Assembly: GCA_903930665.1 (NCBI GenBank)
Contig: CAIYZI010000203.1
Span: forward strand, 1 to 37,271
From: an uncultured beta proteobacterium
GTDB taxonomy: Bacteria; Pseudomonadota; Gammaproteobacteria; Burkholderiales; Burkholderiaceae
Length of the DNA: 37,271 bases
Reading direction: 5' to 3'
Shown here: piece by piece, positions 139 through 36,586 of the stretch
How the letters are laid out: each line of letters begins with the position of its first letter
Numbering within the stretch: the stretch's first letter is position 1
Notes under the pieces: generated by a model
Told to the model about the DNA's origin: nothing
What the model saw: only the letters and a program-made list of their open reading frames with translations
The model's database searches: none
Position numbers and translations under genes: made by a program

Positions 139-492
139 ATGGGAGCACCTCCTGGAAATAATTATAATCCTGCTGGTAGGCCCGTAGGAGCCGTCAACAA
201 AGCGACTTCGAAGGCCCGTGAGGCTATAGCCTTGTTTGTCGATAACAACTCTGACAGGCTTCTAACGTGGCTGGACGCTATAGCCCTTGAAAGCCCAAAG
301 GATGCGTTTGCAGCGTTTATGAGCGTGGTTGAGTACCATGTACCAAAACTCCAGCGTACAGAGCTTGCAGGCGATCCTGAGAAGCCTATAGGCCATGCAA
401 TCACTGTGAGCGAAGAACTGGCGGAGATCATGACGCTTGAACAATTGGAAAAGGTTAAAGAGCGTGTCCTTGCTAAAACCAACGCTGGCTGA
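139..492 (+). CDS. terS: Putative terminase small subunit
   Basis: 117-aa ORF with N-terminal NPAGRPVGAVNKAT motif typical of phage small terminases; directly upstream of and overlapping the large terminase ORF. Confidence 0.75.
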   Translation: MGAPPGNNYNPAGRPVGAVNKATSKAREAIALFVDNNSDRLLTWLDAIALESPKDAFAAFMSVVEYHVPKLQRTELAGDPEKPIGHAITVSEELAEIMTLEQLEKVKERVLAKTNAG

Positions 493-1957
493 CATTGAGT
501 CGGCGATAAAGATCAAGCGTTTTAATAAAATCAAAGATTTGTTTCCAGATAGTGGTCAATTCAGGCGCGAGCTTTATCCGCGCCATATGGAATTTTTTGC
601 AGAGGGGTTTAATTTTCGAGTCAGGGAGCTCCGAGCGGCAAATCGCGTGGGGAAAAGCGTTTGCGGAGCTTTTGAGGTGGTTTGTCACTTGACTGGCAAC
701 TATCCTGCATGGTGGGTCGGTAAACGCTTTAACCGGCCTGTAAATGCCCTTGTCGCTGGCGAGTCTGGTCGTTTGGTGCGCGATTCGATCCAAATGGAAA
801 TTATGGGGCCTCCATCTGCAATTGGGACTGGATTGTTGCCGGAGGCTTCTATCTATGAGCGGAGGCCGAAAACAGGCATTCCTGATGCGATAGACACGGC
901 GCAAATCCGCCATGTCAATGGCGGCATGTCACAGTTACAATTTCAATCTTTCGATCAAGGGCGTGAGGCGTTTCAGGCAACGGCGCGTGATGTAATATGG
1001 CTCGATGAAGAGCCGCCACTTGCAGTTTACACCGAAGCTTTGACGCGCACGATGACAACAAACGGAATTGTCATGGTGACGTTTACGCCATTAAAAGGCG
1101 TATCGGAAACGGTTTTGTTTTTAGAGGATCAGGCAAAAGAAGGGAAAGTTTGCCTTGTAACGGCAACGTGGGATGACGCGCCGCATCTTTCCGCGAAAGA
1201 CAAAGAAGAAATGCTGATGGCCTATCCGCCGCATCAACGCGATGCTCGGACAAAAGGCATTCCTGCATTAGGATCAGGTGCAATTTATCCTGTTGCGGAA
1301 AGTGATTTTGTTATTCCTGCTATTGATCTTCCTGTTCATTGGCGGCGCGGTTATGCACTTGATGTCGGCTGGAATCGTACTGCTGCTTTGTTCGGTGCTG
1401 TTGATGACGACAACGATACAATTTATTTTTATTCTGAACATTATCGCGGACAAGCTGAGCCTTCCGTACACGCCGATGCAATTCGAGCTCGTGGCGATTG
1501 GATGCATGGTGTTATCGATCCGGCTTCGCATGGTCGAGGTCAAAGCGATGGCAAACAGTTATTTGATATGTATGTTGATCTTGGGCTTAAAATAACAAAT
1601 GCAGCCAATGGGGTTGAAACTGGAATTTTCGAATTTTATCAAAGATTATCGAGCGGTCGCATAAAAGTTTTTAACACATGTGTAAATTTCTTGAATGAGT
1701 ATCGTCTTTATCGCCGCGATGAAAACGGAAAGATTGTCAAAGAAAACGATCATCTGATGGATTGTGGACGCTATTTTGTTGTGTCTGGTATCAATGTTGC
1801 ACAATTCTCGCCTGCTTGGATTGCAAAGACATGGCCGAAGCAGGCTCAAACAACGCAATTCATTTATGACCCCTTTGCCAAAGACCGAGTTCAGCAAGAA
1901 GTCGGAGGCCATCCGCAGACGGGTAACTACAATCCGCTTGACCGCAAACGCTTCTAA
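437..1957 (+). CDS. terL: Terminase large subunit (ATPase/nuclease); start uncertain (TTG 437 or GTG 464)
   Basis: Walker A-like AANRVGKS, Walker B VIWLDEEPP, MVTFTPLKG motor motif, nuclease-like GYALDVGWNRTAALFGAVD; overlaps the small-subunit gene. Confidence 0.93.
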   Translation: MNNWKRLKSVSLLKPTLADIESAIKIKRFNKIKDLFPDSGQFRRELYPRHMEFFAEGFNFRVRELRAANRVGKSVCGAFEVVCHLTGNYPAWWVGKRFNRPVNALVAGESGRLVRDSIQMEIMGPPSAIGTGLLPEASIYERRPKTGIPDAIDTAQIRHVNGGMSQLQFQSFDQGREAFQATARDVIWLDEEPPLAVYTEALTRTMTTNGIVMVTFTPLKGVSETVLFLEDQAKEGKVCLVTATWDDAPHLSAKDKEEMLMAYPPHQRDARTKGIPALGSGAIYPVAESDFVIPAIDLPVHWRRGYALDVGWNRTAALFGAVDDDNDTIYFYSEHYRGQAEPSVHADAIRARGDWMHGVIDPASHGRGQSDGKQLFDMYVDLGLKITNAANGVETGIFEFYQRLSSGRIKVFNTCVNFLNEYRLYRRDENGKIVKENDHLMDCGRYFVVSGINVAQFSPAWIAKTWPKQAQTTQFIYDPFAKDRVQQEVGGHPQTGNYNPLDRKRF

Positions 1958-2025: not shown

Positions 2026-2304
2026 GTGTCGGCTAACTTCAAAATAACATCTTTTGTTTTCTTGTGCAGCATTTTATTAAGTGCTTGCGCTCCGCAACAA
2101 CCGATGACCGATAGGCAGCGTGCAATTTTTAATGCATGGGCTATGTCCCCATCGGATTCGTACATTCCATCCTATCAATCGCAGACGGCTGCTTATGTGA
2201 GCAGTCCCCCATCCAGCTTGCCAGAAAATATCAGTTTCGGTAGTTCGGAATTGCCACAAGCTTATCCGAATGTTGTTTTTCCAAACTGCGTGACATGTAG
2301 GTAA
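2026..2304 (+). CDS. Small lipoprotein (signal peptidase II type)
   Basis: GTG start with GAGGT upstream; hydrophobic signal followed by lipobox LLSAC. Confidence 0.7.
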   Translation: MSANFKITSFVFLCSILLSACAPQQPMTDRQRAIFNAWAMSPSDSYIPSYQSQTAAYVSSPPSSLPENISFGSSELPQAYPNVVFPNCVTCR

Positions 2305-3138: not shown

Positions 3139-3166
3139 AACGCAAACGCTGGATCAGCATTAGCCA

Positions 3167-7209: not shown

Positions 7210-9072
7210 ATGGCTCAAGCGGCGATACAAAAAAAAGAGGATGATCTTCCCAATTATACCAAAGGGGGGGCTTTATTTCTTTCTCAACAGCCTACGGATG
7301 AAGTCGAATCCGATGCAAAGGCGGAACGTGTTATGTCGCCGCAAGCTTGGCAGAAGCTTCGCGGTTATCTCGAACAACGCACCCAAGCTTTAAGAAACTG
7401 GCGTAATTCATGGTGGATGGAAAACTGGTCGGATCTGGCGCAGTTTATCATGCCGCGCCGGTCGATCTGGTTGACACAATCGGCTGGTGGATGGCCCACG
7501 CAAAACAATATGCTGCGTGGACAAGAGATTAATCAAGCCATTGTCGATCCTACAGCTACCTATGCCGTGCGTATTTGCGCGGGCGGCATGGTCAGTGGTC
7601 TTGCCTCGCCGTCGCGTCCATGGTTCAAAATGGTGACAAGCGATAAACGCCATCAGCTTGATCAGGAATCGCGCCTTTGGATGGATGAAACCGAGGAAAG
7701 GATTTACACGGTTCTTGCTTCCAGCAATTTCTATAATTCTTTCGCTCAGGAATGCGAAGATGAGATCGTCTATGGCACGTCGCCATCTATTTGCTATGAC
7801 GATGAAACGGACGTTGTGCGGTTTTATAATCCAGCGGTTGGTGAATACTACGTTGCTTGCAACGGCACGTTAAGAGTCGATACGCTCTATCGCGTGTTTG
7901 TGATGACGATTGCGCAAATGGCGAGTTTCTTTGGTGCCGACAATCTGCCGCCAGAAGTTCGCGCTTTGTGGGCGCAGGGTGGCAGTCAGATTGATACGGA
8001 AGTTATCGTTGCCCATGCCATTGAGCCTAACTTTGAAATTCAAGGCGATGAGGAAACAAAAGTCAAAGGCAAGTTTACCTATCGTGAAGTCTACTGGTGC
8101 TATGGCAAGGGCGGTTATCAGCCTTTATCTTTTACAGGTTTCCTTGAATGCCCTTTCACGGTAGGACGCTGGTCAACGCAATCGAATGATGCCTATGGCC
8201 GTTCGGTCGGCATGGATGTATTGCCCGATACAATCCAGCTTCAGATCGAAACGCGCCGCAAAGCCGAAGCTCTTGAAAAGAATGTGCGTCCGCCACTGAT
8301 TGCCAGCATGGATATGAAAAACCAGCCTTCATCGCAGTTGCCGGGTGCCGTGACGTTTGCGAATGACATTGGCCCGACAAAAGGCATGCGTTCGCTTTAT
8401 ACTCAGCAGTTTAATTTGCAGGACATGACGCAAGATATTGCGATGATCCAAGCTAGGATCAAGACGGGATTTTTTACCGACATGTTCATGGCACTTAGCC
8501 AAAATGCAGTGGAACCGGGAAGCACCAAAATTACGGCCTACCAATCGGCAGCCATCGTGCAGGAACGGCTTCAAGTGCTCGGCCCGGTGATTGAATCGAA
8601 ACTTGAAAATCTACGCACAAAGCTCAAACGTGTTTACGCCATTATGGAACGTCGCGGCTTGATTGAGCCAAAGCCGCAAGGCTTGAAGGGCGTTCCTGTT
8701 ACGATAGATTTTGTCAGCGTTCTTGCCTTGGCGCAAAAGGCGGCAAGCTTGGGTGGCGTTGAACGTCTGGTGGCTTTCATCGGTAATTTGGCTGGTTTGT
8801 ATCCTGAGGCAAGAGACAAACTTGACGCGGTATCGTCCATAGAATTGATGAACGATCTTCTCGGAAATCCGAGCAGGATTTTGAATGGGCCTGAAAAGAT
8901 GCAACAGCTTGCCCAGCAAAGAGAACAGCAGCAGCAGCAAATGCAGAAAATGCAGATGCAGCAGCATCTGGCGCAAACGGCATCGACTGCTGCCGACGCG
9001 GCTCAGACACTTTCGCAAACGACAGTTGGGGCTGGGAAAAATGCCTTGAGCCAGATTTTGGGTGGACAATGA
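7210..9072 (+). CDS. Portal / head-to-tail connecting protein
   Basis: 620 aa; WRNSWWMENWSDLAQFIMPRR, SGLASPSRPWFKM, RKAEALEKNVRPPL, Gln-rich C-terminus typical of T7-type connector proteins. Confidence 0.92.
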   Translation: MAQAAIQKKEDDLPNYTKGGALFLSQQPTDEVESDAKAERVMSPQAWQKLRGYLEQRTQALRNWRNSWWMENWSDLAQFIMPRRSIWLTQSAGGWPTQNNMLRGQEINQAIVDPTATYAVRICAGGMVSGLASPSRPWFKMVTSDKRHQLDQESRLWMDETEERIYTVLASSNFYNSFAQECEDEIVYGTSPSICYDDETDVVRFYNPAVGEYYVACNGTLRVDTLYRVFVMTIAQMASFFGADNLPPEVRALWAQGGSQIDTEVIVAHAIEPNFEIQGDEETKVKGKFTYREVYWCYGKGGYQPLSFTGFLECPFTVGRWSTQSNDAYGRSVGMDVLPDTIQLQIETRRKAEALEKNVRPPLIASMDMKNQPSSQLPGAVTFANDIGPTKGMRSLYTQQFNLQDMTQDIAMIQARIKTGFFTDMFMALSQNAVEPGSTKITAYQSAAIVQERLQVLGPVIESKLENLRTKLKRVYAIMERRGLIEPKPQGLKGVPVTIDFVSVLALAQKAASLGGVERLVAFIGNLAGLYPEARDKLDAVSSIELMNDLLGNPSRILNGPEKMQQLAQQREQQQQQMQKMQMQQHLAQTASTAADAAQTLSQTTVGAGKNALSQILGGQ

Positions 9073-11453: not shown

Positions 11454-12515
11454 ATGGCCTTGAATCAGTTTGGCACAGGGGTCTTACCCAACCTTGTAGA
11501 TCACGCAATGCTTTCTAATCCTGATGGCTCCGTCGCCACAGTAGCTTGGCTTCTCGCACAGGCAAATCCTATCCTCAAGGATATGATCTGGCAGGAAGCA
11601 AATGAAGCCACTGGCAATCAGGTGACGCTCAACACCGCATTGCCCCAAGGCATTTGGCGTTCCAATAATCAGGGTACTCCTGCTTCCAAAGGCATGAATG
11701 CCCGTGTGAAATTCGGTATCGGCGAATTGACCGATTACTCGCAGATTGACCGCGCACAAGCCCGTCTCGGCGGCAACCTCGAAAAAATCCGCTGGACGAC
11801 CGACCAGATGCATATTCAGGGTCTTGGTCAGCAGGTTGCAACGGCAGTCTTCTACGCGAACGAAGGCACAACCCCCTCGCAGTTCACTGGCCTTTCTCCT
11901 TATTACAATTCGCTCGAAACCACCACGGCGCAGACGGCTAAGAACGTTATCAACGCTGGCGGTACACAATCGTCCAACACTTCAATTTGGCGCGTTGATT
12001 GGGGCGATCACACAATTTACTGCCATTATCCGAAAGGTATGCAGGCTGGTCTTGTTTATGAAGATAAAGGCGAGTTCCGTCAGCTTTATGACCAATTCGG
12101 CAATCCGTTCGAAGGTTACACATCGTATTTCGAATGGTGGTTGGGTCTTACCGTGATGAATTGGACGTATGCTGGCCGTATCGCCAACATCGACACCACA
12201 ACCGCAGGTTTGGCTGGCACAACGCCTCCTGATCTGAACTCGCTGATGATCCAGTTGTCGTCCAAGATCACGACTTCGCCACGCCGCATGTTTGGCATTA
12301 CCGAAGTCGATGCTCCCGGCGATCCGATGCCCGGCACGATGCCGACTTGGTATTGCAACCGTACTGGCCGCGCTGGTTTGGATATTCAAGCGATCAGAGA
12401 CAAGAATGTTCTGATCTCGCTTAAAGAATATGCTGGTGAACCTGTCGAATTCTGGCGCGAGGCCCCGGTCAGAAGTTGCGATGCGCTGTTGGATACCGAA
12501 AGTGCAGTTTCCTAA
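11454..12515 (+). CDS. Major capsid protein
   Basis: 353 aa; ILKDMIWQEANEATGNQVTLNTALPQGIWR, QARLGGNLEKIRWTTDQMHIQG..., FEGYTSYFEWWLGLTVMNWTYAGRIANID; position after scaffold; good SD. Confidence 0.9.
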   Translation: MALNQFGTGVLPNLVDHAMLSNPDGSVATVAWLLAQANPILKDMIWQEANEATGNQVTLNTALPQGIWRSNNQGTPASKGMNARVKFGIGELTDYSQIDRAQARLGGNLEKIRWTTDQMHIQGLGQQVATAVFYANEGTTPSQFTGLSPYYNSLETTTAQTAKNVINAGGTQSSNTSIWRVDWGDHTIYCHYPKGMQAGLVYEDKGEFRQLYDQFGNPFEGYTSYFEWWLGLTVMNWTYAGRIANIDTTTAGLAGTTPPDLNSLMIQLSSKITTSPRRMFGITEVDAPGDPMPGTMPTWYCNRTGRAGLDIQAIRDKNVLISLKEYAGEPVEFWREAPVRSCDALLDTESAVS

Positions 12516-15315: not shown

Positions 15316-15960
15316 ATGAAAATTCTTGTAGGTGTGTCGAGTTGTAGGGATTGGAAACCCCAGTTTGGGGTTAACTTCGCTATGGCGATTGCGACAGCCC
15401 TCAAGAATGGTCATGAGGTTGGTATTCAAACCGTTGATATTATGGCCGGAGCGGCACAATCACTTTTGCCGCAAGCACGGCAGAATATCCTCGATCATGC
15501 CGTTAAGAACGGTCATACGCATATTGTCATGTTTGATGATGATATGGTTTTTCCGCCGGACGTTATCATTCGTTTGGCTAAGCACAATAAGCAGGTTGTT
15601 TTTCCCAACGTTTGCCAAAAATTGCAGAATAAAATCAGCGGTGTTGTGTTGAAGGACGACTTAAGCCGCCTTGATTCAACCGGACGGAATGGTCTTGAGC
15701 GTGTTCCTTATGGGACATTGGCTTGTACCATGATTGAAGTAGCAGCTTTTGCTTCGTTGCCTCGTCCTCATTTTGAAGTGATGTGGTCGCCAAGTGCTGG
15801 TATCTATATCGGCGAGGATCATTATTTCTTCAAAAAGCTTGGCTTGGAAGGCGTTGAATTTTGGTGCGATCATGATTTGACTCAGGATGTCGGTCATATA
15901 GGCGATTACCAATACCGCTTTCCTCATGTGGAAACTTCTGAATTGAAGGAGGCGGCGTAA
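15316..15960 (+). CDS. Glycosyltransferase-like protein (GT-A/GT2-like)
   Basis: ILDHAVKNGHTHIVMFDDDMVFPPDVIIRLAKHNKQVVFPNVCQK: DxD motif in GT-A context. Confidence 0.75.
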   Translation: MKILVGVSSCRDWKPQFGVNFAMAIATALKNGHEVGIQTVDIMAGAAQSLLPQARQNILDHAVKNGHTHIVMFDDDMVFPPDVIIRLAKHNKQVVFPNVCQKLQNKISGVVLKDDLSRLDSTGRNGLERVPYGTLACTMIEVAAFASLPRPHFEVMWSPSAGIYIGEDHYFFKKLGLEGVEFWCDHDLTQDVGHIGDYQYRFPHVETSELKEAA

Positions 15961-21731: not shown

Positions 21732-24062
21732 ATGGCACCCCCGATTTCAGCCCAAGTTCCAGACGCTAATCCTTACGGTACGTCACAAGGCGTTACCCCG
21801 GCAGAAGGGGTGCCGAATGACGAACTGCGCACTCATGCCTCGCCTGAGGATTTCGGCGGTCAGGTTGGAGCTGCGGTTTCGAAGTTGGGGGATACGGGCG
21901 TTGATATTGGGCAACATTACGCACAGATGGCAGCGCAAGCTCATGCCGATGATATTATTTCAAATCAACTTGTTCCGGCAACGACTAAAATATCAAGCGA
22001 TTATTATCAACTTAAAGGAAAGGCCGCTGTTGATGCCTATCAGCCAACAGTAGATGCTCTAAATCAGGTTCAGCAAAATGCGGTAAAAGACTTGCCTCCG
22101 TATCAGCAAAATCTTGTTCGTTCATTTTCGATTAGGCATATCACTAATTTGCAAGACGGTTTAATGCGTCATCAAGATGATCAAATGAATCAATATGAGA
22201 AAAATTCATCGGATGCTTTTATCGGAGCGCAAGGTGATATAGCGGTAACGGCTGGCAGCAATCCATATGTTGTTAATCAATCCATACAATCAGCCGTTGG
22301 TAAATCTACATTATATGCTGTTCACAATGAGGGAATTGATCCGAATGATCCGCAAGGTAAGGCCATTATTGATGAACGTTCAAGGCAAGTAACTGGACAG
22401 ATCACGCAAAAGGTAGTTGAGGCCAGTATCTTGCGTGGGGATATAAATTTTGCCAATAGTATCTATCAGAAAAACAAAGACAGTATCGGCGGTGCGCAAC
22501 AAGTTGAGATTGAAAAAAATCTCCATGCCGAAAACCAGAAATATACTGATCAAGGCAATGTAGCTGCGATTATGAGTGGATCACCAATGCCTCCACCTGC
22601 ATTGGGCGGAATGCAATCGGTTGATGTGAAAGCTGGCGTTGTGAAAGCTGCGCAATCTCGCAATCTTGATCCGAATGTAGCTTTAATGATTACTGGTTTA
22701 GAATCATCATTTGGTCACGATGGCAATCCCAATGTTGGAAACGTAAAGGATCTGCCAACAAAAACAGTGGAAGATGGATTTAATAATCAGGCCATCAAAC
22801 AGGATGAAGCTACCAAAGTAGCCAACAAAATGTTTAATGGTGCCGCTACACCTGCGCAGATTTATACCGTGTATCAGCAAGGAGTTGGTGGAGGGCCAGC
22901 TTTATTAAAAGCAGCGCAAGAAACGCCAAATGCAAAAGCCGTTGATGTCCTGTCTCAATTTAACACCAAAGACGAACCAAATTACGCCTACAAAGCTTTG
23001 ATCGGAAATGGTGGAAACGCCACTATGACGGCTAAACAATTTACCGATATGATACAGGCAAAATGCGATAATATGTATGGTTATGTAGCATGCAATACGG
23101 CTGCACCAAATGGCGGTCAAAAAGATTTGGCGCAAGCTTTTATTCAGCCGCATCAAGAATCTGGCGTTACCATGCAGCCAACATCTAATCCGCTAGATGC
23201 GTTGAAACAATTTGAGGATAATTCCGCTACTTATTACGCAAGAGCTAATGCTTTGCCGACAATAGATTCCGTGAATGGAGCAAAAAAAGGTTTGGATGAA
23301 CAAAGGGCTTCACTTACAAAGCTTGCCGATGATTATAAAAACAGTCAGTCCGCTAAGATACATGACGTAACATCCTTGCCTGATTTCTATTCTTTGAATG
23401 ATCCCCGCATAACACAGGAAATGCGTACATTCATGGGACGTGATGATGCCGCTATGAAATCGGCAAACGAAATGGCTAAGATTAATCGTGAAGCTGCGGG
23501 AAAGCCTGACCCAACGAAATACGGTTCAAATTATGCGCAAGTTCAAGAGGATATTGTTAACCACAAACTCACGACATATTCGCAGCTCAACGATTACATG
23601 TCTAAAGGGATGCTTAATGGTGATGGGGTTAAACAAGCTAGAAAAGATATTGACGATGAATATAATATTAAGGAAAGAAAGGCGGCAGCTTATGCAATTA
23701 TAAAAGCTCAGACTTTGGGTTATTCTGATAATAAAGGCGAGGCCGCTGTTAAACTAAATACGGTTATGTCGATGCTGCCACAATTAGCATCAGATAAGGA
23801 TCAAGCTGGAATTTCTCCAATTGATTATTATGATCCTAAAAATAAGGAATTTATCGGTAATGCCGTAAAAGATATATCTGTTCCAAAAGCACAAAGTATC
23901 ATTGAGAGTGCCACGCAAGCACCTAAAGTAAGAGGCGTTGATGATGTATTGTATGACGCTTCAAAAGTTCAAAATGATCCAGTAAAATTGCAGAAGTATA
24001 TGGAAGAAGCTAAATCGCTTGGTTGGAAACCGAAACCGCAAGTTCCAGTGGAAACTAAGTAA
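21732..24062 (+). CDS. Internal virion protein with lytic transglycosylase-like domain
   Basis: VVKAAQSRNLDPNVALMITGLESSFGHDGNPNVGN...IYTVYQQGVGGGPALLKAA lysozyme-like fold pattern; position equivalent to gp15. Confidence 0.75.
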   Translation: MAPPISAQVPDANPYGTSQGVTPAEGVPNDELRTHASPEDFGGQVGAAVSKLGDTGVDIGQHYAQMAAQAHADDIISNQLVPATTKISSDYYQLKGKAAVDAYQPTVDALNQVQQNAVKDLPPYQQNLVRSFSIRHITNLQDGLMRHQDDQMNQYEKNSSDAFIGAQGDIAVTAGSNPYVVNQSIQSAVGKSTLYAVHNEGIDPNDPQGKAIIDERSRQVTGQITQKVVEASILRGDINFANSIYQKNKDSIGGAQQVEIEKNLHAENQKYTDQGNVAAIMSGSPMPPPALGGMQSVDVKAGVVKAAQSRNLDPNVALMITGLESSFGHDGNPNVGNVKDLPTKTVEDGFNNQAIKQDEATKVANKMFNGAATPAQIYTVYQQGVGGGPALLKAAQETPNAKAVDVLSQFNTKDEPNYAYKALIGNGGNATMTAKQFTDMIQAKCDNMYGYVACNTAAPNGGQKDLAQAFIQPHQESGVTMQPTSNPLDALKQFEDNSATYYARANALPTIDSVNGAKKGLDEQRASLTKLADDYKNSQSAKIHDVTSLPDFYSLNDPRITQEMRTFMGRDDAAMKSANEMAKINREAAGKPDPTKYGSNYAQVQEDIVNHKLTTYSQLNDYMSKGMLNGDGVKQARKDIDDEYNIKERKAAAYAIIKAQTLGYSDNKGEAAVKLNTVMSMLPQLASDKDQAGISPIDYYDPKNKEFIGNAVKDISVPKAQSIIESATQAPKVRGVDDVLYDASKVQNDPVKLQKYMEEAKSLGWKPKPQVPVETK

Positions 24063-27000
24063 TGGACGATCAATCTGCGATTCAGCCAACACAGCCATCA
24101 CAGGACACTCAACAGCCAGTTGCTCGTGATCTTGCGGCAATTCCCGTAACACAACAGCCAACGCCAGTAAATCAACCACAACAGCAGCCTATAGACCAAA
24201 CGCGCAACCTTTCTGCCACTCCGTCTGAATCTAATTCTCAAGTTGCTACGGCGCAGCAAGATCAGCAACAACAATCTGATTTAAGCGCATTTGCTGCCGA
24301 TGCTCAAAAAAGTTCTGAACAAAATAACACCGATCTTGCATCCTTCACGCAAGATATTTCCGCACACATAAATAAGCCGGAAGTGCAAGAGCAATTAGCC
24401 GCTGAACAGAAACCAATTCAGCAACAAGCAGAATTTGATTCTTACAAAGCAACAATGAACGATCAAGATAAACAAGCATTTGATGCGCTTATAAAACTTT
24501 CTCCAAATAATGCCAGAGCCATGATGGAAGTCGGCAAAACTGTTGACGCATTGGGTGGTGCCGCCAAAGATTTATTTACGGGGGTAAGCAATATAGGCGC
24601 ATCAATAAACAATGATGTAATAAATTTGGTTACATCAAAAGTTCCGCTTTATGATGCTTCGGCAAAAGAACAAATTAGTTCCGATTTGAGTCAGTTCAGA
24701 AATTCAAAAACCTATAAAGAAAATGCCGCTAGTTTCTATAATCTTGCAAACGATATTATAAAACCATTCGCTACGGCTTTTGCGCAGAGCGCCTATATGG
24801 ATCAGCTTCGCACAACATTTGAAAACATTCCACCACCCGTTGATGAAAATGGCGTGAGCATAGAAAACCCCATTGAAGTCATGATGAATGCTGGTGCAAC
24901 GCCTATTCAAGTGGCGTTTTCTGTATTGGGTTTTAGTCCTCTCGCTCAACAGATAGGTGAACGAGCCGGAATGAGCAAGGAAGATGCCATTAATTTTGGT
25001 CAGCAAGTTGCACAGATAGGAATGGTAGTCGGAGGTGGTTCTTTTATTAAAACACCTGAGAAAATTACTCGTCTTAATGACGCAAGTGCGACGGGAACAG
25101 AGCAGAAGTATTTTTCTGAACCATTGCGTACACAACCTGATGAAGCAGAAGCCAGAATGAACATAATTGGCATGATAGCTCCAGATCATGAGGTTCCGCC
25201 TATCAATGTGGAGCGCGGTGCTCCTCAAACAATTCATGATGTTGCCAGACAGATAAACCCAGAAGTTTTTTCTAAGTGGGACCCCATAACTGCTCAACTT
25301 CAACGACTTCATACATGGATTGGCGATTTAGCTCAAAAGCGTGATGATAATATATTGAGCGATCCCGAAGTGGTTGCCGCAAAAGGCAAGGTTGATGATC
25401 TGACAAATACCAATAATGAACAGATAAATTCCATATTGGATAAAGTCCATGGTGTTGAAGATAAATTGACCAATAAGCAATCTGAAAAATTGGCCGATTT
25501 ACGTTCTCAAATTGACCAGTCTAAAACAGCATTTGATGATTTTTTGGCCGATAAAAAAATGGCAGATACGCCCGATATGGAAGCCGTCAGAAATCGGATA
25601 ATTGACCTGTCCAAGAAAAGAGAAGGTTTAGCGGATGATGTAAATAAGGCTTATCGTGACGCTGCCGATAAATTTCCTGAAACAAAAACTGTACCAGAAC
25701 CCCAATTCAATTTTTCTAAAGAAAATGTGGAAGCGCATCTTGGCGATGTAATAGGGGAAAAGCCAAATCAGGAACAAACATCTAAAGAGCAAATGAGAAA
25801 TTCAGTGATTGGCGATATTGTTAGCAAACAGATAGCCGCTGGAAGAAGTTTGGAAGAAGCGCAGACGACCGCACATATCACTGCAACCTTTCTGCAAAGC
25901 ATGTCCGACATTTACGGCGGCACAAAGGGAACGATTGCGGATTGGTATAAGAATGAAGGTGCCGATGTTATTAAACAAGGTGAGCGGGTTGCTCAACTTG
26001 CACAAAAGGGAAGTCTGGAACAGAAGGCAAAAGGATCGTACATACCAGCATATATTTCTAATACGGGTAGGGCAATAATTCGTCTAATGAAACGTGCGGA
26101 TGCGTCAACGTTTATTCATGAAAGCGCACATCATTTTCTTGATATTATGGCTAAGTATGCAGCCGAGGAAGGCGCACCGAAGCAACTTGTCGATGATGTT
26201 GCTAAAATCAGGGAATGGCTCGGTAAATCGAAAGGTAATTGGAGCGGTTTTACACGTTCACAGCATGAGTCTTTTGCGCGTGGTGTCGAAAGATACTTCT
26301 TGGAAGGCCATGCTCCTAATGAGGCAATGGCGGATATATTCGCTAAACTGAAAAAGATGCTAACTGATATTTATAAATCAGTTACAAACATACCGGATCA
26401 AAAGGTAGAGATTAATGATGATATTCGAAAGCTTTTTGACCGTATGCTTGGCGGTGGTGATGAAACTATTATAGCGAAAGAACATACGACTGGAAAAGAG
26501 TTTGCCGATTTGCATGAAGCCGACGCCAAAGAAACTGAACCAAAAGACGCTGCCGCTGTTGCCGACAATATAAATGCCGAACGTCAAAAATTAAAGGAGC
26601 AGAACAATGTCACAACGACAGAAAATGCAACAAGTCCAGCAGGAATTGGAGAACCTGCAACAACAGGCTCAGCAGCCGAGCCTTCCGCCACAGAAGGCCG
26701 CATTACTGAACAATCTGGCGAGGTCGGCGCAAGCGGAGTTAAAACTCCGGCAGAAGGCGATGGATTACGACCAGAGCCACGGGCAGTCGATAGAGGAGCA
26801 ACAAGCGAACCAGGCAGGAATGCCGCTGTCAGTGCAACAACAGCCGAAGAACGGGCCGCAGCCGGAACCACACATCCAACCGGAGGCAAGCCCTATTTCC
26901 TAGATGAAAGCAGCAAGCGTTTTCGTTTGGATAAGATTAACGGCACTGAAGATGCTATGGCGGCACTCAATGAATTAGTTGCCAATAACTCAGACATTAT

Positions 27001-29317
27001 GGATGCGCGTTACGGCGAACCTGCTTATAGACAGGCTAAGCTTATTGACGCTAATTTTGAACTTATTGAACAGTTGGCGGAAAAATCAGCGACACTTAAA
27101 AAGGATGCTCAAAACTCTCCGCAAGACATGCTCGAATATCTTCGTATAACTCAACAACTTCAAATAGCAGCAGAAATAAGAGCCGAATTGCAATCTGATT
27201 GGGGACATGCGGGGCACGCCCTTCGAAGGGTGGTCGGTTCACAGAATATCCCTGATCTGGCTTCCTACGTAAAATCAGTCACAGGTAAGTCACTTCTTCA
27301 GTTGGAAGAAGAAGCTAAACTTATGGATACAATTAGTAAACCAGAAGCCAAAGCAGATTTTGCCGTGGATGTGCGTAAAGGAAGATATCAAGCATTTGAA
27401 GATGCTACGCTTGCATTTTATAGAAACGATATCCTGTCAAATCCGCTTACGCATCTTGCCTATCTTTCAAACACTTTTGTTAAAGCCTATGGGCGCATCC
27501 TCATAAACACTCCTTATGCTGCAATGATCGGCGCAATCAGGAATGATGAGGAACGGGTGACTTTAGCGCAAATACCTCACATGCTGACTGTCGTTAACAA
27601 TGCGGCAATGAATGCTTTCCCTGCCGCATGGGGAGCAGTTAAATCCGGTATTCCGTTTATGCGCGGTTCGGAAGAGGGCGTAGCACGCAAAGCCCTTGAT
27701 AAAGTATTTGCAGATAGATTTTCCGGCAGAAACGATTTGTTGAAAGCTGCGAGAGTTGAGGCCAAGGCCAATAAATTTAAGCAATCGGATATAGACGCAA
27801 CACTTGCTCTTCGTAGTGCAGACAAAGAGTCTGCCGCAAAACAGCAAGCTTCATATCCCGCCATTCATGCGTATTTATTGAGTGAAATAGATAAGTCAAA
27901 TAAAGGATACAAACAATCATTGCCGGGGGATATTGGGCATTTCCTGACTGTCCCTGAACGATCAATCGCAGGTATTCATACTCTTTCGTATTCGGTAAAT
28001 TACGAAATGCGGATAGCCGAGAAAGCTTTTCAGGATGGTGTGTCCAAAGGACTAACTGGCGATGCTATGAATGAGCATCTTGTGAAATACACCCAAAGTC
28101 CTCCTATGGATGTAATGAAGGATGCTCACGAAAAATCACTTCAAGCTATGTATATGAAAACATCAAGCCAAGAAATGAACAGGATGTTATCATCTATAGC
28201 AAATCCCAACATTCCTGGGTTAAGGCTTGTAACTGGTTTGGCAATGCCGTTTGCAAAAATTGGCGTGAACATGCTCGATCAGGGGTTAATTGAAAGCACA
28301 CCGTTGGGGATTCTAAAAAAATCTGTCCGCGACGATTTGCTTGGAAAGAACGGGGATATTGCTAGAGCGAATGCTGGTGCCAAGATGATGCTTGGGGCAA
28401 CCGCTGGAACAGCCGCTTTTGGAATGGCTATGGCTGGCTTTATTACTGGTGGTGGATCAACTGATTACAAAAGACGCGCCATTGATATTGCTGGTGGATG
28501 GAAACCATACAGCATCAAAATCGGAAATCTTTATATCCCTTATAAAAAATGGCTTGGTGAAATGTCTCCCATTGTTGGCGGTTGCGCTGATTTAGCTGAT
28601 GGCATTCACTCTCTTTCGGAAGGTGATACGCATCATATAGCTATGGGAATTGCCGCTAGCTTTGCCGAAAATATCACAAGCGATACGTGGCTCAATGGAA
28701 TGTCTCAACTTGTCGAGGCTTTCAGAAATCAAGACTCAGGATGGCGTTACGCTCAAAATTTGGCTACAGGGTTCATTCCTTATTCGGCTGCATTAAATAT
28801 GGTCAGGCAACAAGTTGATCCGACTGCGAGATCAACGACAAGCAATGGAATTAATAATCTGTATGGGCTTGCGCCAAAGATAGCTAATCGTATTCCGTTT
28901 GTTTCTTACATGCTAGATCCAAAGGTAAACGTATTAGGCGGAGAATTGCCTAGCGGAACAAACATGGGATTGGCTTGGGACAAAAATGATCCGATTGTTC
29001 AGAAGCTCGATAAACTTGATATTGGCATTTCTACAGTTCCGAAGGAAATTATGGGTGTTAATTTAACGCCAGATCAGTATCACGAATATGCCGTCGTATC
29101 TGGTCTTACTTTGAGGCACATGCTTTGGAATCAAGAAAAAACTGGTTTATTGCAGCAACCAGATTTTGAAAAACTTTCTCATTATGACCAATCAAGAGAA
29201 ATTGATAGAACAGTCACATCATCACGTAATGCTGGTGCTGGTTATTTAACTTCTAAAAATCCTGAAATTATGGAGAAGGCGGCGGATATTAAAGAAAGGT
29301 TGCATAATAATCCGTAA
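24062..29317 (+). CDS. Very large internal virion/ejection protein (gp16-position, polyvalent-like) with HExxH motif
   Basis: 1751 aa; TAATG overlap with upstream gene; zincin motif FIHESAHHFLDIMAKYA; long helical Gln-rich segments. Confidence 0.75.
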   Translation: MDDQSAIQPTQPSQDTQQPVARDLAAIPVTQQPTPVNQPQQQPIDQTRNLSATPSESNSQVATAQQDQQQQSDLSAFAADAQKSSEQNNTDLASFTQDISAHINKPEVQEQLAAEQKPIQQQAEFDSYKATMNDQDKQAFDALIKLSPNNARAMMEVGKTVDALGGAAKDLFTGVSNIGASINNDVINLVTSKVPLYDASAKEQISSDLSQFRNSKTYKENAASFYNLANDIIKPFATAFAQSAYMDQLRTTFENIPPPVDENGVSIENPIEVMMNAGATPIQVAFSVLGFSPLAQQIGERAGMSKEDAINFGQQVAQIGMVVGGGSFIKTPEKITRLNDASATGTEQKYFSEPLRTQPDEAEARMNIIGMIAPDHEVPPINVERGAPQTIHDVARQINPEVFSKWDPITAQLQRLHTWIGDLAQKRDDNILSDPEVVAAKGKVDDLTNTNNEQINSILDKVHGVEDKLTNKQSEKLADLRSQIDQSKTAFDDFLADKKMADTPDMEAVRNRIIDLSKKREGLADDVNKAYRDAADKFPETKTVPEPQFNFSKENVEAHLGDVIGEKPNQEQTSKEQMRNSVIGDIVSKQIAAGRSLEEAQTTAHITATFLQSMSDIYGGTKGTIADWYKNEGADVIKQGERVAQLAQKGSLEQKAKGSYIPAYISNTGRAIIRLMKRADASTFIHESAHHFLDIMAKYAAEEGAPKQLVDDVAKIREWLGKSKGNWSGFTRSQHESFARGVERYFLEGHAPNEAMADIFAKLKKMLTDIYKSVTNIPDQKVEINDDIRKLFDRMLGGGDETIIAKEHTTGKEFADLHEADAKETEPKDAAAVADNINAERQKLKEQNNVTTTENATSPAGIGEPATTGSAAEPSATEGRITEQSGEVGASGVKTPAEGDGLRPEPRAVDRGATSEPGRNAAVSATTAEERAAAGTTHPTGGKPYFLDESSKRFRLDKINGTEDAMAALNELVANNSDIMDARYGEPAYRQAKLIDANFELIEQLAEKSATLKKDAQNSPQDMLEYLRITQQLQIAAEIRAELQSDWGHAGHALRRVVGSQNIPDLASYVKSVTGKSLLQLEEEAKLMDTISKPEAKADFAVDVRKGRYQAFEDATLAFYRNDILSNPLTHLAYLSNTFVKAYGRILINTPYAAMIGAIRNDEERVTLAQIPHMLTVVNNAAMNAFPAAWGAVKSGIPFMRGSEEGVARKALDKVFADRFSGRNDLLKAARVEAKANKFKQSDIDATLALRSADKESAAKQQASYPAIHAYLLSEIDKSNKGYKQSLPGDIGHFLTVPERSIAGIHTLSYSVNYEMRIAEKAFQDGVSKGLTGDAMNEHLVKYTQSPPMDVMKDAHEKSLQAMYMKTSSQEMNRMLSSIANPNIPGLRLVTGLAMPFAKIGVNMLDQGLIESTPLGILKKSVRDDLLGKNGDIARANAGAKMMLGATAGTAAFGMAMAGFITGGGSTDYKRRAIDIAGGWKPYSIKIGNLYIPYKKWLGEMSPIVGGCADLADGIHSLSEGDTHHIAMGIAASFAENITSDTWLNGMSQLVEAFRNQDSGWRYAQNLATGFIPYSAALNMVRQQVDPTARSTTSNGINNLYGLAPKIANRIPFVSYMLDPKVNVLGGELPSGTNMGLAWDKNDPIVQKLDKLDIGISTVPKEIMGVNLTPDQYHEYAVVSGLTLRHMLWNQEKTGLLQQPDFEKLSHYDQSREIDRTVTSSRNAGAGYLTSKNPEIMEKAADIKERLHNNP
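26607..26903 (+). CDS. Candidate overprinted gene, 98-aa Gln-rich coiled-coil-like protein inside the ejection protein gene
   Basis: ATG at 26607 preceded by AAAGGAG (26593-26599), 7-nt spacing; out of frame with host gene; host protein is low-complexity here. Confidence 0.5.
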   Translation: MSQRQKMQQVQQELENLQQQAQQPSLPPQKAALLNNLARSAQAELKLRQKAMDYDQSHGQSIEEQQANQAGMPLSVQQQPKNGPQPEPHIQPEASPIS

Positions 29318-29417: not shown

Positions 29418-31553
29418 TTGACTATCTCTTCTTCCCAAAATTCCGTTGTTTTTCAGGGTAATGACGCAACGAATGTTTTTGACATTCCGTTCGTTATGGA
29501 TGCCGCAAGCGATATCATTGTTTTTTACACAAATTCATCCGGCATAATTACCGTAATTCCTCAGACACAATACATCATTTCGATTAATCCGCCAGCAACA
29601 GGGATGATTTGGGGTATCGGCGGTACGCTACAATATCCAATTTCAGGTTCACCGATTGCCGCCGGAACATCGATAAACGTGACACGCTTGTTGCCGTTGC
29701 AGCAAAATACCAGCCTCACCAATCAGGGAAACTTTTATCCTCAGGTCGTTGAAGCTGCCCTTGATACGCTTGAAATGCAAATTCAGCAGGTGAGCGCACG
29801 GACGGGGCAAATACGCGGTATCTGGCAACCAAACACGTCTTATAATTATGGCGATATGGTTCAGGATGGAAGTTACGGATTAGACAGTCTTAATTACTAT
29901 TTATGCGCACAAACAAACGTATCTTCATCGTCATGGTCGAATGATCTTGCGGTAGGCTATTGGTCGTTGGCTCTTCCCGCAACGATTCCAGTCACACCTC
30001 TACCGCTTTCAATCGCCAACGGCGGTACGGGGGCTTCTTCGGCGGCAACAGCTTTGGCCAATCTTGGCTGTGTATCGCTTGCCGGAAATAATGTTTATAC
30101 TGGCACTAATAATTTTACAGGCGGCTCGGCACAAGTTTCGACAAGAAGCGTCGGAGATAGCAGTGCTTATGCTGCATCAACGGCATTTGTAAACGGAACG
30201 GCACTTACTCTTGCAACGGGAACCACGGCGGTCACGCAAGCCAACAGCGATGCGACGACGAAGGTTGCCACGGATGCGTTTGTGCAAAATGTTTTAACGG
30301 CGAAAGGTGCTGTTTTGCAAAATCTTCTGCCCAACACGCAATGGCAGGTAGCTACGGGCATGGGTTCTGTTACTAAAATGAACAGCCAAGGGACTGGAAC
30401 GCAAAATGTCGTTGCGGTTACAAGTTTTACGACAGGCAGCAATACAGTCGTTTTTAATACTGCCAATACCCAGCAAGCAAAAGTTGGCGATATCGGTTTA
30501 TTTAGCGCAGGCGATGCAGCGATCACTTTAGCACCGATGCGAATAACGGCAGTTTCTTCGAACGTTTCGTTTACCGCCAATTTGCCGTGGGCGGGTAAAG
30601 CTTCAACATCATCCGCTAAAAACTTTCAGTTGATAACAGTTGGCGATTATACCGGGGCTTCTGGTGGTGCTGCTTTTGATGGTTGGACTAAAAATCCTTC
30701 ATCGTTGATAATTTGGCGTGATGATTTTTCCATCAATCAAAAAGCAGGAAGTCCTTATAGCGTCGGGTTTAGAAAAGATTCTAATTCAACGGAATATTAT
30801 TATTCGTCGCTTAGCCCGAATGATGTGGAAAAACTGGCAGGAAGAACTCTTGTTTTTGGGGCTTGGGTTTACCAGAAAGCGCAAGGTGGATCAGGAACGT
30901 GGACTTTATTCGTCAACGATAGCGGAAATCAATATACGGCTCCCACGAACGGAACGGGGTCTAGCGTTGGCGGTTATCAATGGCTTGAATTTTCATTTAC
31001 CGTTTCTTCGACCTGTACGTATTTGGAAGTAGGATTGCAGCTTAACGGCACGACGAACGATATATATTATCTAAGTCAGCCTATAATGGCTTTCGGAACA
31101 TTTTTAGGCGTAGGAAATTACATTCAGAATTCAAACGAACGGCTTGATTTTCTAGTCCATCTTAACGCCCCCACTTTGACCCCTTATTCGGGGACATTTC
31201 CCTCTACGGTATGGACGCCCGGTGCAACTTATTATGGATATGAGCTTGATTTAGAAGCCATTTGTTTTTGCCAAGTCACAAGAACAATAAAGAGCATCAC
31301 GGGAAAAATCGAATATACAACGGCCACACCTGGGCTTGTTTTACAGTTTGTGGACTATCTCGGCGCACCGGGGATATTCGGCCCTGAGGTTTCAACCCAA
31401 GTCGCCAACAAAGTCGTCTGCGACATCGGGGATTGGTACATAGACCAAGGGAATAAGTACGCCCAAGGATATTTTGGCATAACGACTTTCACAACGCCAT
31501 CGGCTGTTATTGCTAATATCACAGTGGACTTTTCCTCAGCGAGGCTATCATGA
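29418..31553 (+). CDS. Tail fibre protein
   Basis: TTG start with GGAGG; T7-fibre-like N-terminus (VFQGNDATNVFDIPFVMDAASDIIVFY...LPLQQNTSLTNQGNFYPQVVEAALDTLEMQIQQV), SIANGGTGASSAATALANLG motif. Confidence 0.85.
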   Translation: MTISSSQNSVVFQGNDATNVFDIPFVMDAASDIIVFYTNSSGIITVIPQTQYIISINPPATGMIWGIGGTLQYPISGSPIAAGTSINVTRLLPLQQNTSLTNQGNFYPQVVEAALDTLEMQIQQVSARTGQIRGIWQPNTSYNYGDMVQDGSYGLDSLNYYLCAQTNVSSSSWSNDLAVGYWSLALPATIPVTPLPLSIANGGTGASSAATALANLGCVSLAGNNVYTGTNNFTGGSAQVSTRSVGDSSAYAASTAFVNGTALTLATGTTAVTQANSDATTKVATDAFVQNVLTAKGAVLQNLLPNTQWQVATGMGSVTKMNSQGTGTQNVVAVTSFTTGSNTVVFNTANTQQAKVGDIGLFSAGDAAITLAPMRITAVSSNVSFTANLPWAGKASTSSAKNFQLITVGDYTGASGGAAFDGWTKNPSSLIIWRDDFSINQKAGSPYSVGFRKDSNSTEYYYSSLSPNDVEKLAGRTLVFGAWVYQKAQGGSGTWTLFVNDSGNQYTAPTNGTGSSVGGYQWLEFSFTVSSTCTYLEVGLQLNGTTNDIYYLSQPIMAFGTFLGVGNYIQNSNERLDFLVHLNAPTLTPYSGTFPSTVWTPGATYYGYELDLEAICFCQVTRTIKSITGKIEYTTATPGLVLQFVDYLGAPGIFGPEVSTQVANKVVCDIGDWYIDQGNKYAQGYFGITTFTTPSAVIANITVDFSSARLS

Positions 31554-31858
31554 ACTGGAAGTATTCACCTTCAAACAAGCAATTTTATAAATTTGTAGAC
31601 GCGAGCCTTTTGCCGTCTGACGTTGTTGATGTAACGGACGCGCAACGCCTTACGCTCCTTAAAGGTATAGCACAAGGAGGCGTCATACAGATCGTTAATG
31701 GAACGCCAACTGTCGAACTTTCTATTAAAGCTCAAATTGATGCATTGGAAATTACTGCAACGCCACGTCGTATGCGCGAGGCCACATTAGGAATTGATAA
31801 TGGGTGGTTGCAAAATTTGAATGCACAGATTGTCAATTTACGTTCCAAACTTACTTAA
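31550..31858 (+). CDS. Tail fibre assembly/chaperone-like protein
   Basis: Small ORF ATGA-coupled to fibre; C-terminal [37 protein letters not shown] resembles tail fibre assembly proteins. Confidence 0.55.
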
Positions 31859-31866
31859 GGTAAATT

Positions 31867-32061
31867 ATGAAACTCAACCTTATCATAACGATCATTGCGG
31901 TTCTTTCATTCACCGGAGGAATAGCGTTTGGCCAATCAACCGCTATGCCTATCGTCATGGGTTATTTAACAACAGTCGGTTGCAGCGGGAGCATGCAGTC
32001 ATGTTGGATAAAATACTCTTCTGCTCACCCCATTCCTGCATCGTTGGTAATTACACCATGA
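31867..32061 (+). CDS. Small secreted protein with signal peptide
   Basis: [30 protein letters not shown] signal peptide; ATGA overlap with next gene. Confidence 0.6.
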
Positions 32062-33182
32062 AAAAAATTCTTACTCTTTTATTATTTCTTGCATGTCCAG
32101 CATGGGCACAGTCCACGGCAACTCCCGTTGTCCCCGGTTCAATTGGAACAAGTGCGCCATATTTTACGCAATACTCAACAGCAAATCCTCTGCCAGTTAG
32201 CGTCAGCACTAGCTCAATCTCTGGCGTCTTCCCCGTAGCGAACGGGGGGACGGCGGCGACTGCGTTGGGCGCAGATTTAACTAATTCCGGCGGTGTCTTA
32301 CAAGGCACTCTCACTATAAGCAGTAATTGCGGTCAGGTGACTTCATGCACGATCTTAACCACTGACCAAAACAAAGTAGTGCTTAACAGCGATTCATCTC
32401 CAGTCGCAGTTAGTTTGCCTACGGCAGGCTCAACTGGTTTCCCGGCTGGGTGGGGGTATACTGAATTAAACGTAGGCCAAGGGCTTGTGACGATTACCCC
32501 AGCTTCAGGCACGATTAATAATTTTCTTTCAACTGTTACGTTATCTCAAGGACAGTCTGCGTATATCTACACACTGGACGGATCGACGTGGTACGCCTTC
32601 TTCAATAATTTTGGAACACCAATTAACGTCACAGCGAACGGAGTTGCCTCAACACCTGCGTTGCAGGTGACAGGTAATTTTTACTCAGGGGGCACCGGGA
32701 CAACCACGACACCACAATTTGCCGTTCTCGGTACAAGCACTCCTGTTACCGGATGGAACACATTGGGCACAGCAATCGGTGTTAACCTTGCTCCTGCCAG
32801 TAACGGAAATTTTCTCGATTTTTGGCGTAATGGCACAGAGCGCGCGCATATCGACTCTTTTGGCAGTCTTACTTTAGGTGGTAATTTTACAGGTGGCATC
32901 ATATCGACCTTTGGAAGTGCCACAACTAATGTGAGTGGAAGTGTATCGGGTACGGCAGCGTTCAGTATGCCGTTTCAAGGGACGGCTTACAAAAAAGCTA
33001 TGGTCTATCTCACTGCTCTAAACGGCACCGCCTCGTATACCTTTCCAGCCGCATTTACCAACACTCCTGTGGTCGACAGCACAAGCGGTCTGGCTACAAG
33101 TCTGGTCACATCAATCGGCACCACAGCCATGACCGTGACGGGTACAACTTCAACAGGCTGGTTATTTATTGAGGGGTTCTAA
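32058..33182 (+). CDS. Secreted fibre-like protein with signal peptide
   Basis: ATG at 32058 in ATGA overlap gives [18 protein letters not shown] signal; [14 protein letters not shown] and C-terminal TGWLFIEGF fibre-like motifs; the 31821 start in the ORF track is unlikely. Confidence 0.7.
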
Positions 33183-33184
33183 CT

Positions 33185-34540
33185 ATGAGGATATTCTTAT
33201 CCTGTCTTTTTTGGCTGGCAAATCTACATTTTGCCTATGCTGTTTCGCTTTTCGGCGGCGGTAATGTCGGCATTCCACTCCCCTCAACACAAACGGCTAC
33301 GATACAGGCAAATTTAGCGTCAACTAGCTTCACGATACCAATAAATTTTATCGGAGCCAGCATCGAACTATCTGATGCCATAGCCGATAATGTTTATGTC
33401 CCATCAAACACATCTCTTATCAACGTTTTCAAAGCTTTGTTTACAGGTAACGGTTGTATTCTGCGTTACGGCGGAAGTAGCGAAGATACCACCGTTCCCC
33501 CTGCGCTTACCCAAGCCATCGCAAATGATATTGCCGGTTTTACGCAAAATGTCGGTTGCAAAATGCACTATGGGCTTGACGGCTACGCCAACAACCCGAC
33601 TGTGGCGGCTACACAAGCTGGCTATATCATCAATGCCATGGGGGTTGGTAATGTGAGCTTTGCCATTGGCAACGAACCTGATTTATGGGGTCTTGGATAT
33701 GCGGCTTATGGAACGATCTTTAATGCCGCTGAAGCGTATGTTCTTGCAGTCAATTCAAGCGCGACATTTGAGGGGCCAGAAGTAGCTTGCACCGGATGTG
33801 GAGGCGTAATCCAAGCATATCAAAACGCTACAGACAGAACACCTGCGCAAATGACGGCGGTAACGGGACATTATTATCCTTATGGACAACCCACAGCCAT
33901 ACCGACTTTTCAGCAAATGACGACATCGTGCAACAATGGAGATTTTTCAAGCTACACAAGTTATGCTTCGAATATGCGCATCAATGAAAGTAATGCAGTG
34001 GCTGGGGGCGGACTGCCGGGGCTGAATGATCGCATGGCATCGGCATCATGGTACATCTGTGTTTCCTCGATCCTAGCAAAACTAGGGTATATCGGGTACA
34101 GCAACCACAATCATATCGGATCGTATTACAATCTTTACCACGAAAATGGTGACACAACATGGACACCAAACCCAGTCTTTTACGGCGCGTATCTTTTCAC
34201 GCGGTTACTGGGGCAGACCATTATTTCAACTACGAACACTAATCTTGATGCGAATGCTAGTGTGATTGCTACCCTAAATTCAAACAGCAAAGCCAACATT
34301 CTTGTCGCCAACAATAACTGGACAACCAATCTAACATTCAAGCCAACCGAAACGGGGACGTGGTCTAACGGAACCGTTCTTCTCTTAAACGGCGCGTCGT
34401 GCGCGGAGATTAATCCCACACTTGGAGGGTCGTCTTTCGGTGAAGGCGCGGCATGGTCAGGCACAACAACACCAATAACAAACGGCCAGACAGTGACGAT
34501 ACCGCCCTGTGGCGCGGCACTGGTGAGTATTACATCTTGA
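33185..34540 (+). CDS. Secreted GH79-like glycoside hydrolase (clan GH-A)
   Basis: Signal peptide MRIFLSCLFWLANLHFAYA; FIGASIELSDAI, RYGGSSED, FAIGNEPDLWG (acid/base), INESNAVAGGGLPGLNDRMASASWYICVSSILAKLGYIGYSNHNH (nucleophile), C-terminal beta domain. Confidence 0.75.
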   Translation: MRIFLSCLFWLANLHFAYAVSLFGGGNVGIPLPSTQTATIQANLASTSFTIPINFIGASIELSDAIADNVYVPSNTSLINVFKALFTGNGCILRYGGSSEDTTVPPALTQAIANDIAGFTQNVGCKMHYGLDGYANNPTVAATQAGYIINAMGVGNVSFAIGNEPDLWGLGYAAYGTIFNAAEAYVLAVNSSATFEGPEVACTGCGGVIQAYQNATDRTPAQMTAVTGHYYPYGQPTAIPTFQQMTTSCNNGDFSSYTSYASNMRINESNAVAGGGLPGLNDRMASASWYICVSSILAKLGYIGYSNHNHIGSYYNLYHENGDTTWTPNPVFYGAYLFTRLLGQTIISTTNTNLDANASVIATLNSNSKANILVANNNWTTNLTFKPTETGTWSNGTVLLLNGASCAEINPTLGGSSFGEGAAWSGTTTPITNGQTVTIPPCGAALVSITS

Positions 34541-36052: not shown

Positions 36053-36586
36053 ATGGGCTTTTGGTCTCAATTCCTCGCGTGGCTGCATCCTCCGGCGGTG
36101 AAGCCAGCGGTTATAAAGCCTGAGCCAATAATGATGCAGCCAACCGATAACCGCGCAGCCTTTCTAACCACGATTGCCATAAGCGAGGGTACGCAGGAAA
36201 TAGGCGACAGAGGCTATAATGCGCTCTTTGGTGGGCTTACCTTCACCAGCTATGCCGATCATCCCCGCAAGACATTCTTTATCCCCAGACTGAATATCAA
36301 AACTACCGCAGCCGGACGCTATCAAATCCTTGAACATATCTACGACTATTACAAAGCAATCCTAAAACTTCCTGATTTCTCACCGGATAGCCAAGATAAA
36401 ATAGCCTTAGAATTAATCAGGGAGTGTCAGGCACTTGCTGATGTAGATGCTGGCTACCTGAGCAGCGCAATTACAAAATGCTCTAGCCGTTGGGCTTCTT
36501 TTGCAGGAAATCACTATGGTCAGCCGACGACCCCGATGGGTGTGCTTATGGCTGCATTCTCTAAAGCGGGGGGCAAGTTAGCGTGA
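36053..36586 (+). CDS. Endolysin, lambda R-like lytic transglycosylase (GH104-like)
   Basis: AISEGTQEIGDRGYNALFGGLTFTSYADHPRKTFFIPRLNIKTTAAGRYQIL...DFSPDSQDKIALELI...ITKCSSRWASFAGNHYGQ matches lambda R. Confidence 0.9.
   Translation: MGFWSQFLAWLHPPAVKPAVIKPEPIMMQPTDNRAAFLTTIAISEGTQEIGDRGYNALFGGLTFTSYADHPRKTFFIPRLNIKTTAAGRYQILEHIYDYYKAILKLPDFSPDSQDKIALELIRECQALADVDAGYLSSAITKCSSRWASFAGNHYGQPTTPMGVLMAAFSKAGGKLA

Follow-up and report, generated by a model that had tools for sequence, protein, structure and literature searches.

A GH79-family glycoside hydrolase with a signal-peptide-like start among the late genes of an epsilon15-like podovirus

What an enzyme of glycoside hydrolase family GH79 is doing behind a signal-peptide-like start, among the late genes of a phage, is the question raised by one gene in the stretch of DNA analysed here (37,271 nt, hereafter the window). 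To our knowledge GH79 is known from cells only and no phage GH79 has been described so far, most subscription literature lying outside the search; as far as we know, phage depolymerases are nearly all regarded as virion tailspikes acting at entry.

The window was the whole of contig C203 from a fragmented MAG (760 contigs, 87.6% complete, 6.6% contaminated). Genes for terminase, portal, capsid, tail, tail-fibre assembly and endolysin were all found on the same strand as the GH79 gene, in keeping with the "phage late operon" of the preliminary description of this DNA:

437..1957, + strand: terminase large subunit; the start listed is a TTG, and the true one may differ
7210..9072, + strand: portal / head-tail connector (PF12236, phrog_332)
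11454..12515, + strand: epsilon15-type major capsid protein (NF045672; E 1.6e-71, above cut-off)
24062..29317, + strand: internal virion protein (phrog_9880, phrog_6651)
29418..31553, + strand: main tail fibre/receptor-binding protein with a podovirus virion-anchoring N-terminal domain (phrog_1640), without signal peptide
31550..31858, + strand: tail fibre assembly protein (phrog_188; E 2.5e-5)
36053..36586, + strand: endolysin (phrog_90; E 1.6e-39)

A gp7-type capsid, the portal (35.5% to that of epsilon15) and the gene order all agreed with an epsilon15-like podovirus. The contig is thus a partial phage of this type, its relatives by portal and capsid being epsilon15, phiV10, BPP-1 and AF. 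As no terminal repeat was present on the contig and no integrase, repressor or replication/early genes were recognised on it, it represents an incomplete phage fragment, namely the late module only. The portal gene was absent from all of the many genomes searched in the bin's genus, so the organism of the bin is at most a candidate host; scans of IMG/VR with the internal virion protein and the tail-fibre-like protein gave no matches either. Within the head/packaging block (window 2308-4665 and 15316-15960) a methyltransferase gene (PF13489), two glycosyltransferase-like genes and an Anp1-like glycosyltransferase gene (PF03452) were also noted, and a small lipoprotein-like protein with an LLSACA lipobox was encoded between the terminase and methyltransferase genes (window 2026-2304).

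The gene in question and its putative ribosome-binding site were read as follows:

33185..34540, + strand: GH79 enzyme gene, 451 aa; signal-peptide-like residues 1-19, TIM barrel and C-terminal beta domain
33171..33176, + strand: Shine-Dalgarno-like GAGGGG, 8 nt 5' of the GH79 ATG, read from the sequence

Upstream of the ATG the frame was open for four codons and then met a stop at 33173. Because the frame is closed there and GAGGGG precedes the ATG, the signal-peptide-like N-terminus (MRIFLSCLFWLANLHFAYA, followed by VS) is part of the GH79 protein. A rule-based scan recognised in it a Sec-type signal peptide with an AxA cleavage site (signal peptides throughout this work were assigned by a simple home-made rule, not by SignalP), and residues 1-19 were the segment of the AlphaFold2 model that was disordered, with pLDDT <50. 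The motifs quoted for the protein beforehand (RYGGSSED, FAIGNEPDLWG and INESNAVAGGGLPGLNDRMASASWYICV...GYSNHNH) were all present in the translation of 33185-34540, and the "multiple Cys" mentioned with them numbered 8 in the mature protein. Judged from its N-terminus, the protein is probably exported by Sec.

We collected 64 relatives of the window GH79 from IMG/VR and GTDB genomes and aligned them, and the GH79 protein was folded with AlphaFold2. Searches of Pfam, PHROGs and NCBIfam returned no meaningful match, and since neither Pfam nor NCBIfam gave a match to GH79, membership of the family was visible only by direct comparison. Against the PDB, phmmer retrieved five distinct GH79 sequences (E 3.7e-17 to 5.5e-16), among them BpHep of Burkholderia pseudomallei (PDB 5bwi/7pr9; E 3.7e-17) and AcGH79 of Acidobacterium capsulatum (PDB 3vny/7psk; E about 2e-16); human heparanase gave E 0.02 to 1. 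The model (pLDDT 87.5, pTM 0.88) displayed a GH79 fold from residue ~35 to the C-terminal end, and its secondary structure contained the beta-rich C-terminal domain that had been proposed. The best 17 Foldseek matches in the PDB were all bacterial GH79 chains, headed by AcGH79 (E 8e-37, TM 0.81-0.83) and including BpHep (E 8e-32); human proheparanase (4e-22) and GH51/GH44 (about 1e-22 to 1e-17) ranked below them. The phmmer values and the best Foldseek value exclude a chance likeness to GH79. Both the phmmer matches to BpHep and AcGH79 and the model, closest to AcGH79, upheld the GH79-like assignment, and the comparison with GH79 structures that had been suggested as a check placed the protein inside clan GH-A. 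We regard its GH79 family and clan GH-A fold as close to certain.

The codons named earlier for the candidate acid/base and nucleophile (33674-33676 and 33986-33988) were both GAA and corresponded to E164 and E268, which aligned with AcGH79 E173 and E287. A Glu pair at strands 4 and 7, as expected of this clan, was found at the ends of model strands E157-161 and E264-269, and E61, N163, E164, H229, Y231, R265 and E268 were invariant in the 65 aligned sequences. The window enzyme shared with AcGH79 the fold, the catalytic Glu pair and counterparts of E45, H327 and Y334 (E61, H308 and Y315 in the phmmer alignment). Unlike AcGH79, to which it was about 20% identical, it is phage-borne and has shorter active-site loops, including the loop that matches the Asp105 loop. 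Fold, catalytic pair, a GGG after the nucleophile and a conserved Tyr were likewise common to BpHep (about 22% identity) and human heparanase (14%), the latter having a pro-peptide whereas the window enzyme has none. The GGG of the window enzyme (274-276) took the place of heparanase G349/G350, glycines that presumably bind the substrate carboxylate. Gly349, Gly350 and Tyr391 are among the substrate-holding residues of heparanase (PMC6892829); in AcGH79, Glu45 and the backbone of Asp105 hold the sugar O4, and Glu45 pairs with His327 (PMC10785800).

Other parts of the site departed from the family. Substitutions N98S, N306S and F307N set the window enzyme apart in the 65-sequence alignment, and besides the Asp105 loop the rim segments E164-P198 and Y231-R265 were short, P198-H229 being long. 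The short Asp105 loop was considered as a mark of phage-specific endo-action, but it was equally short in 12 of the 63 bacterial relatives and is a hint only. From the residues retained, the enzyme is likely to be catalytically competent. Because the catalytic and -1-site residues, including GGG 274-276 and Y315, are kept in spite of N98S, N306S, F307N and the short loop, a beta-glucuronide would be our best guess for its substrate; the same three substitutions, together with the strong divergence of the enzyme (branch length 3.9 in the tree described below), mean that specificity may have shifted in the phage. With good grounds we infer, as had been suggested, a secreted depolymerase directed against a uronic-acid polysaccharide.

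Three packed genes whose products begin with signal-peptide-like segments lay in the interval from the tail-fibre/chaperone genes to the endolysin gene, and the GH79 gene was the last of them. The other two were:

31867..32061, + strand: 64-aa protein with a signal-peptide-like start, its mature part like the N-terminus of the 374-aa protein
32058..33182, + strand: 374-aa tail-fibre-like protein with signal peptide and motif VANGGTAAT; its start overlaps the preceding stop (ATGA), and 2 nt separate its end from the GH79 ATG

The similarity between these two proteins (E 1e-4) ran partly via the signal itself, and the N-terminus of the larger one resembled a protein of a related prophage (L104; E 0.001). 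A module QSTAxPxVxG...YSxAxPxPxS was observed in both (window 31867-33182). Tail genes of seven phages, taken as a control, were devoid of signal-peptide-like starts, the exception being a protein of phage AF (24808-25830), adjoining the spanins. Signal peptides were found in Burkholderia phage BcepC6B gp19, annotated "tail fiber protein" (MKKLIAILLAVPALALGA...), and in Xanthomonas phage PBR31 gp35 (MKKLIALFSLFCTSAFGA...), each lying between tail spike and holin, and two related prophages (L104 and L105) of bacteria of the bin's family carried signal-peptide-bearing homologues in the corresponding stretch. This signal-peptide "tail fibre/structural" family (269-369 aa), between tail spike and lysis genes, comprised:

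L106, 2960-4033: BcepC6B gp19
L107, 4675-5484: PBR31 gp35
L104, 12141-13250: prophage homologue
L105, 11303-12265: prophage homologue

Acyltransferase-like genes were read by eye close to the slot in both prophages. Another PBR31 protein, gp40, has been published as a signal-peptide-bearing esterase encoded next to the lysis genes (PMC10975493). Like the window set, gp40 (an SGNH esterase), gp35 and BcepC6B gp19 are signal-peptide-bearing surface-glycan or tail-fibre-like proteins beside a podovirus lysis cassette; none of the three is a glycoside hydrolase, however, and the gp40 gene lies on the other strand. The slot from tail fibre to holin/endolysin was occupied by O-antigen-modifying genes in epsilon15 (O-antigen/polymerase-inhibitor genes), phiV10 (oac) and Tyrion (an O-antigen acetylase). 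The O-antigen conversion genes of epsilon15 and phiV10 lie on the opposite strand and serve O-acetylation or the control of polymerisation, not hydrolysis. Tentatively, epsilon15-like and other proteobacterial podoviruses might possess a late "exported set", in which a small module protein, a tail-fibre-like protein and a polysaccharide hydrolase or esterase, encoded consecutively and exported by Sec, would accumulate in the periplasm and be released at lysis, there either destroying receptor glycans at exit (cf. viral receptor-destroying enzymes) or joining particles outside the cytoplasm; GH79 would be one interchangeable catalytic part of it.

A second phage GH79 was found on a 46-kb IMG/VR contig (IMGVR_UViG_3300048907_000160, hereafter L008), its domain being 30% identical to that of the window over 411 residues. 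As in the window, this phage-borne GH79 had a signal-peptide-like start and its gene sat between virion and endolysin genes. L008 differed in that the 951-residue protein, behind its signal peptide, carried a tail-protein domain (phrog_5939) in the N-terminal half with the GH79 domain fused at the C-terminus, in that the GGG motif was missing from this domain in the alignment, and in the phage itself, the window capsid protein having no match in L008. Phage-borne GH79 behind a signal peptide and beside lysis genes has therefore been found twice, in different phages. The neighbouring L008 genes for an SGNH esterase, a glycine-rich protein and a tailspike-like protein had signal-peptide starts too and were followed by the endolysin gene; a 50-residue module after the signal (63% identity) was common to two of these four proteins. 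Runs of consecutive signal-peptide phage genes were also observed at L008 5419-13777 and L097 2379-7811, several of the proteins sharing after the signal a two-Cys module of ~50 residues (QPVxLxVQGGxGSRTLCLxGxGxxGxxxDxxCxPIGxxDPxAHT), with different domains following it. One of them, at L008 11396-13777 and L097 from 6001, resembled by eye a tailspike in which a signal peptide precedes the customary virion-anchoring N-terminus.

A tblastn search of INPHARED with the GH79 protein gave no match at 1e-5 (only noise of E 7 at a limit of 10), no phage GH79 was present in PHROGs, and in BFVD, where the best viral fold match reached only 6e-15 (TM 0.61), there was none either. Two further candidate loci were discarded, L002 being a chance match of 14 residues, antisense within an unrelated replication-type gene, and L003 an antisense frame with stops over an lpxD-like gene. 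Our literature searches found nothing linking GH79 to viral auxiliary genes, and nothing on superinfection together with glycoside hydrolases and signal peptides. The window gene is the first phage GH79 found in the collections searched; it adds a viral branch to an established enzyme family, in a setting that is partly precedented.

Cellular relatives of the GH79 gene occurred in Acidobacteria, Verrucomicrobia, Bacteroidota and other environmental bacteria, with a relative in only one other genome among 300 of the bin's order and none in the rest of the bin. Homologues of the window structural proteins were absent from 80 cellular GH79 loci, so that these are not known as prophages of the window type. 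In the tree the window GH79 grouped weakly with L008 (77/36); since this grouping is weak and both branches are very long, the tree gives neither a common phage origin with L008 nor the donor of the gene.

Regarding function, we lean towards a role at phage exit, for which we infer activity, substrate, export, timing and benefit. The product would be a catalytically competent retaining GH79 beta-glucuronidase, expressed late as part of the tail-fibre/lysis operon. The host Sec pathway would carry it to the periplasm, in which disulfides could form among its eight Cys, and lysis would free it. As a soluble depolymerase it would then hydrolyse a glucuronic-acid-containing polysaccharide of the host surface (capsule, EPS or O-antigen) and so loosen the matrix round the lysing cell; progeny would no longer adhere to debris or to one another, which would help them to escape. 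Its task would be to destroy receptors or clear the matrix at exit, not to serve as a tailspike at entry. This role is favoured because of the GH79 fold and family, the kept active site, the signal peptide with its fixed start and ribosome-binding site and the lack of an anchoring domain, and also because of the packed signal-peptide genes, the surface-modifying or signal-peptide proteins in the relatives' slot and the precedent of PBR31 gp40. The L008 variant, fused to a tail-protein domain, counts against it.

That variant speaks for a different reading, unlikely on balance, in which the enzyme is a virion component, a tail-associated depolymerase digesting capsule or EPS at entry; its signal peptide might be cleaved off or do no harm, or the enzyme might be added to the particle after lysis. 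The GH79 gene directly follows the tail-fibre genes, in L008 the GH79 half of the protein follows an N-terminal half that matches a tail family, and the signal-peptide neighbours in the window, BcepC6B and PBR31 include tail-fibre-like proteins, one of them annotated as a tail fibre. Earlier the signal peptide had been taken to make a virion role less likely; virions are assembled in the cytoplasm, whereas a signal peptide would direct the protein to the periplasm, but the argument is weaker than it looked, as the L008 GH79-tail fusion and the relatives' "tail fibre" proteins bear signal peptides as well. The window protein itself had neither a PHROG match nor an anchoring domain, being GH79 from residue ~35 on, whereas the adjacent fibre has phrog_1640.

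Less probable still is an alteration of the host surface before lysis or in a lysogen (superinfection exclusion or seroconversion), after the manner of the O-antigen genes of epsilon15 and phiV10. The slot shared with these genes and with the Tyrion acetylase is consistent with it, but they lie on the opposite strand, as befits lysogenic expression, and the GH79 gene, by contrast, runs in the same direction as the late genes and almost abuts them; no integrase or repressor was recognised on the contig, whose early region is missing, and before lysis a Sec-exported enzyme must cross the outer membrane to meet surface glycans. We consider it very unlikely that the gene is an auxiliary metabolic one, supplying the infected cell with glucuronate from environmental (plant or algal) glycans as cellular soil and freshwater GH79 may do: its relatives in environmental bacteria would fit, but a late position beside lysis genes leaves little time for catabolism, and the family is rare in the bin's order. 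A host gene, or a chimera assembled beside phage DNA, is hardly credible despite the fragmentation and contamination of the bin, given same-strand phage genes on either side at gaps of 2 to about 140 nt, the lack of a related gene elsewhere in the bin and the independent occurrence in L008.

These results extend GH79 to phages and may give a new tool to cut glucuronate-containing polysaccharides. That the slot which related phages fill with surface-modifying or signal-peptide proteins here encodes an intact GH79 enzyme bearing a secretion signal suggests that surface-glycan enzymes are also employed at exit.
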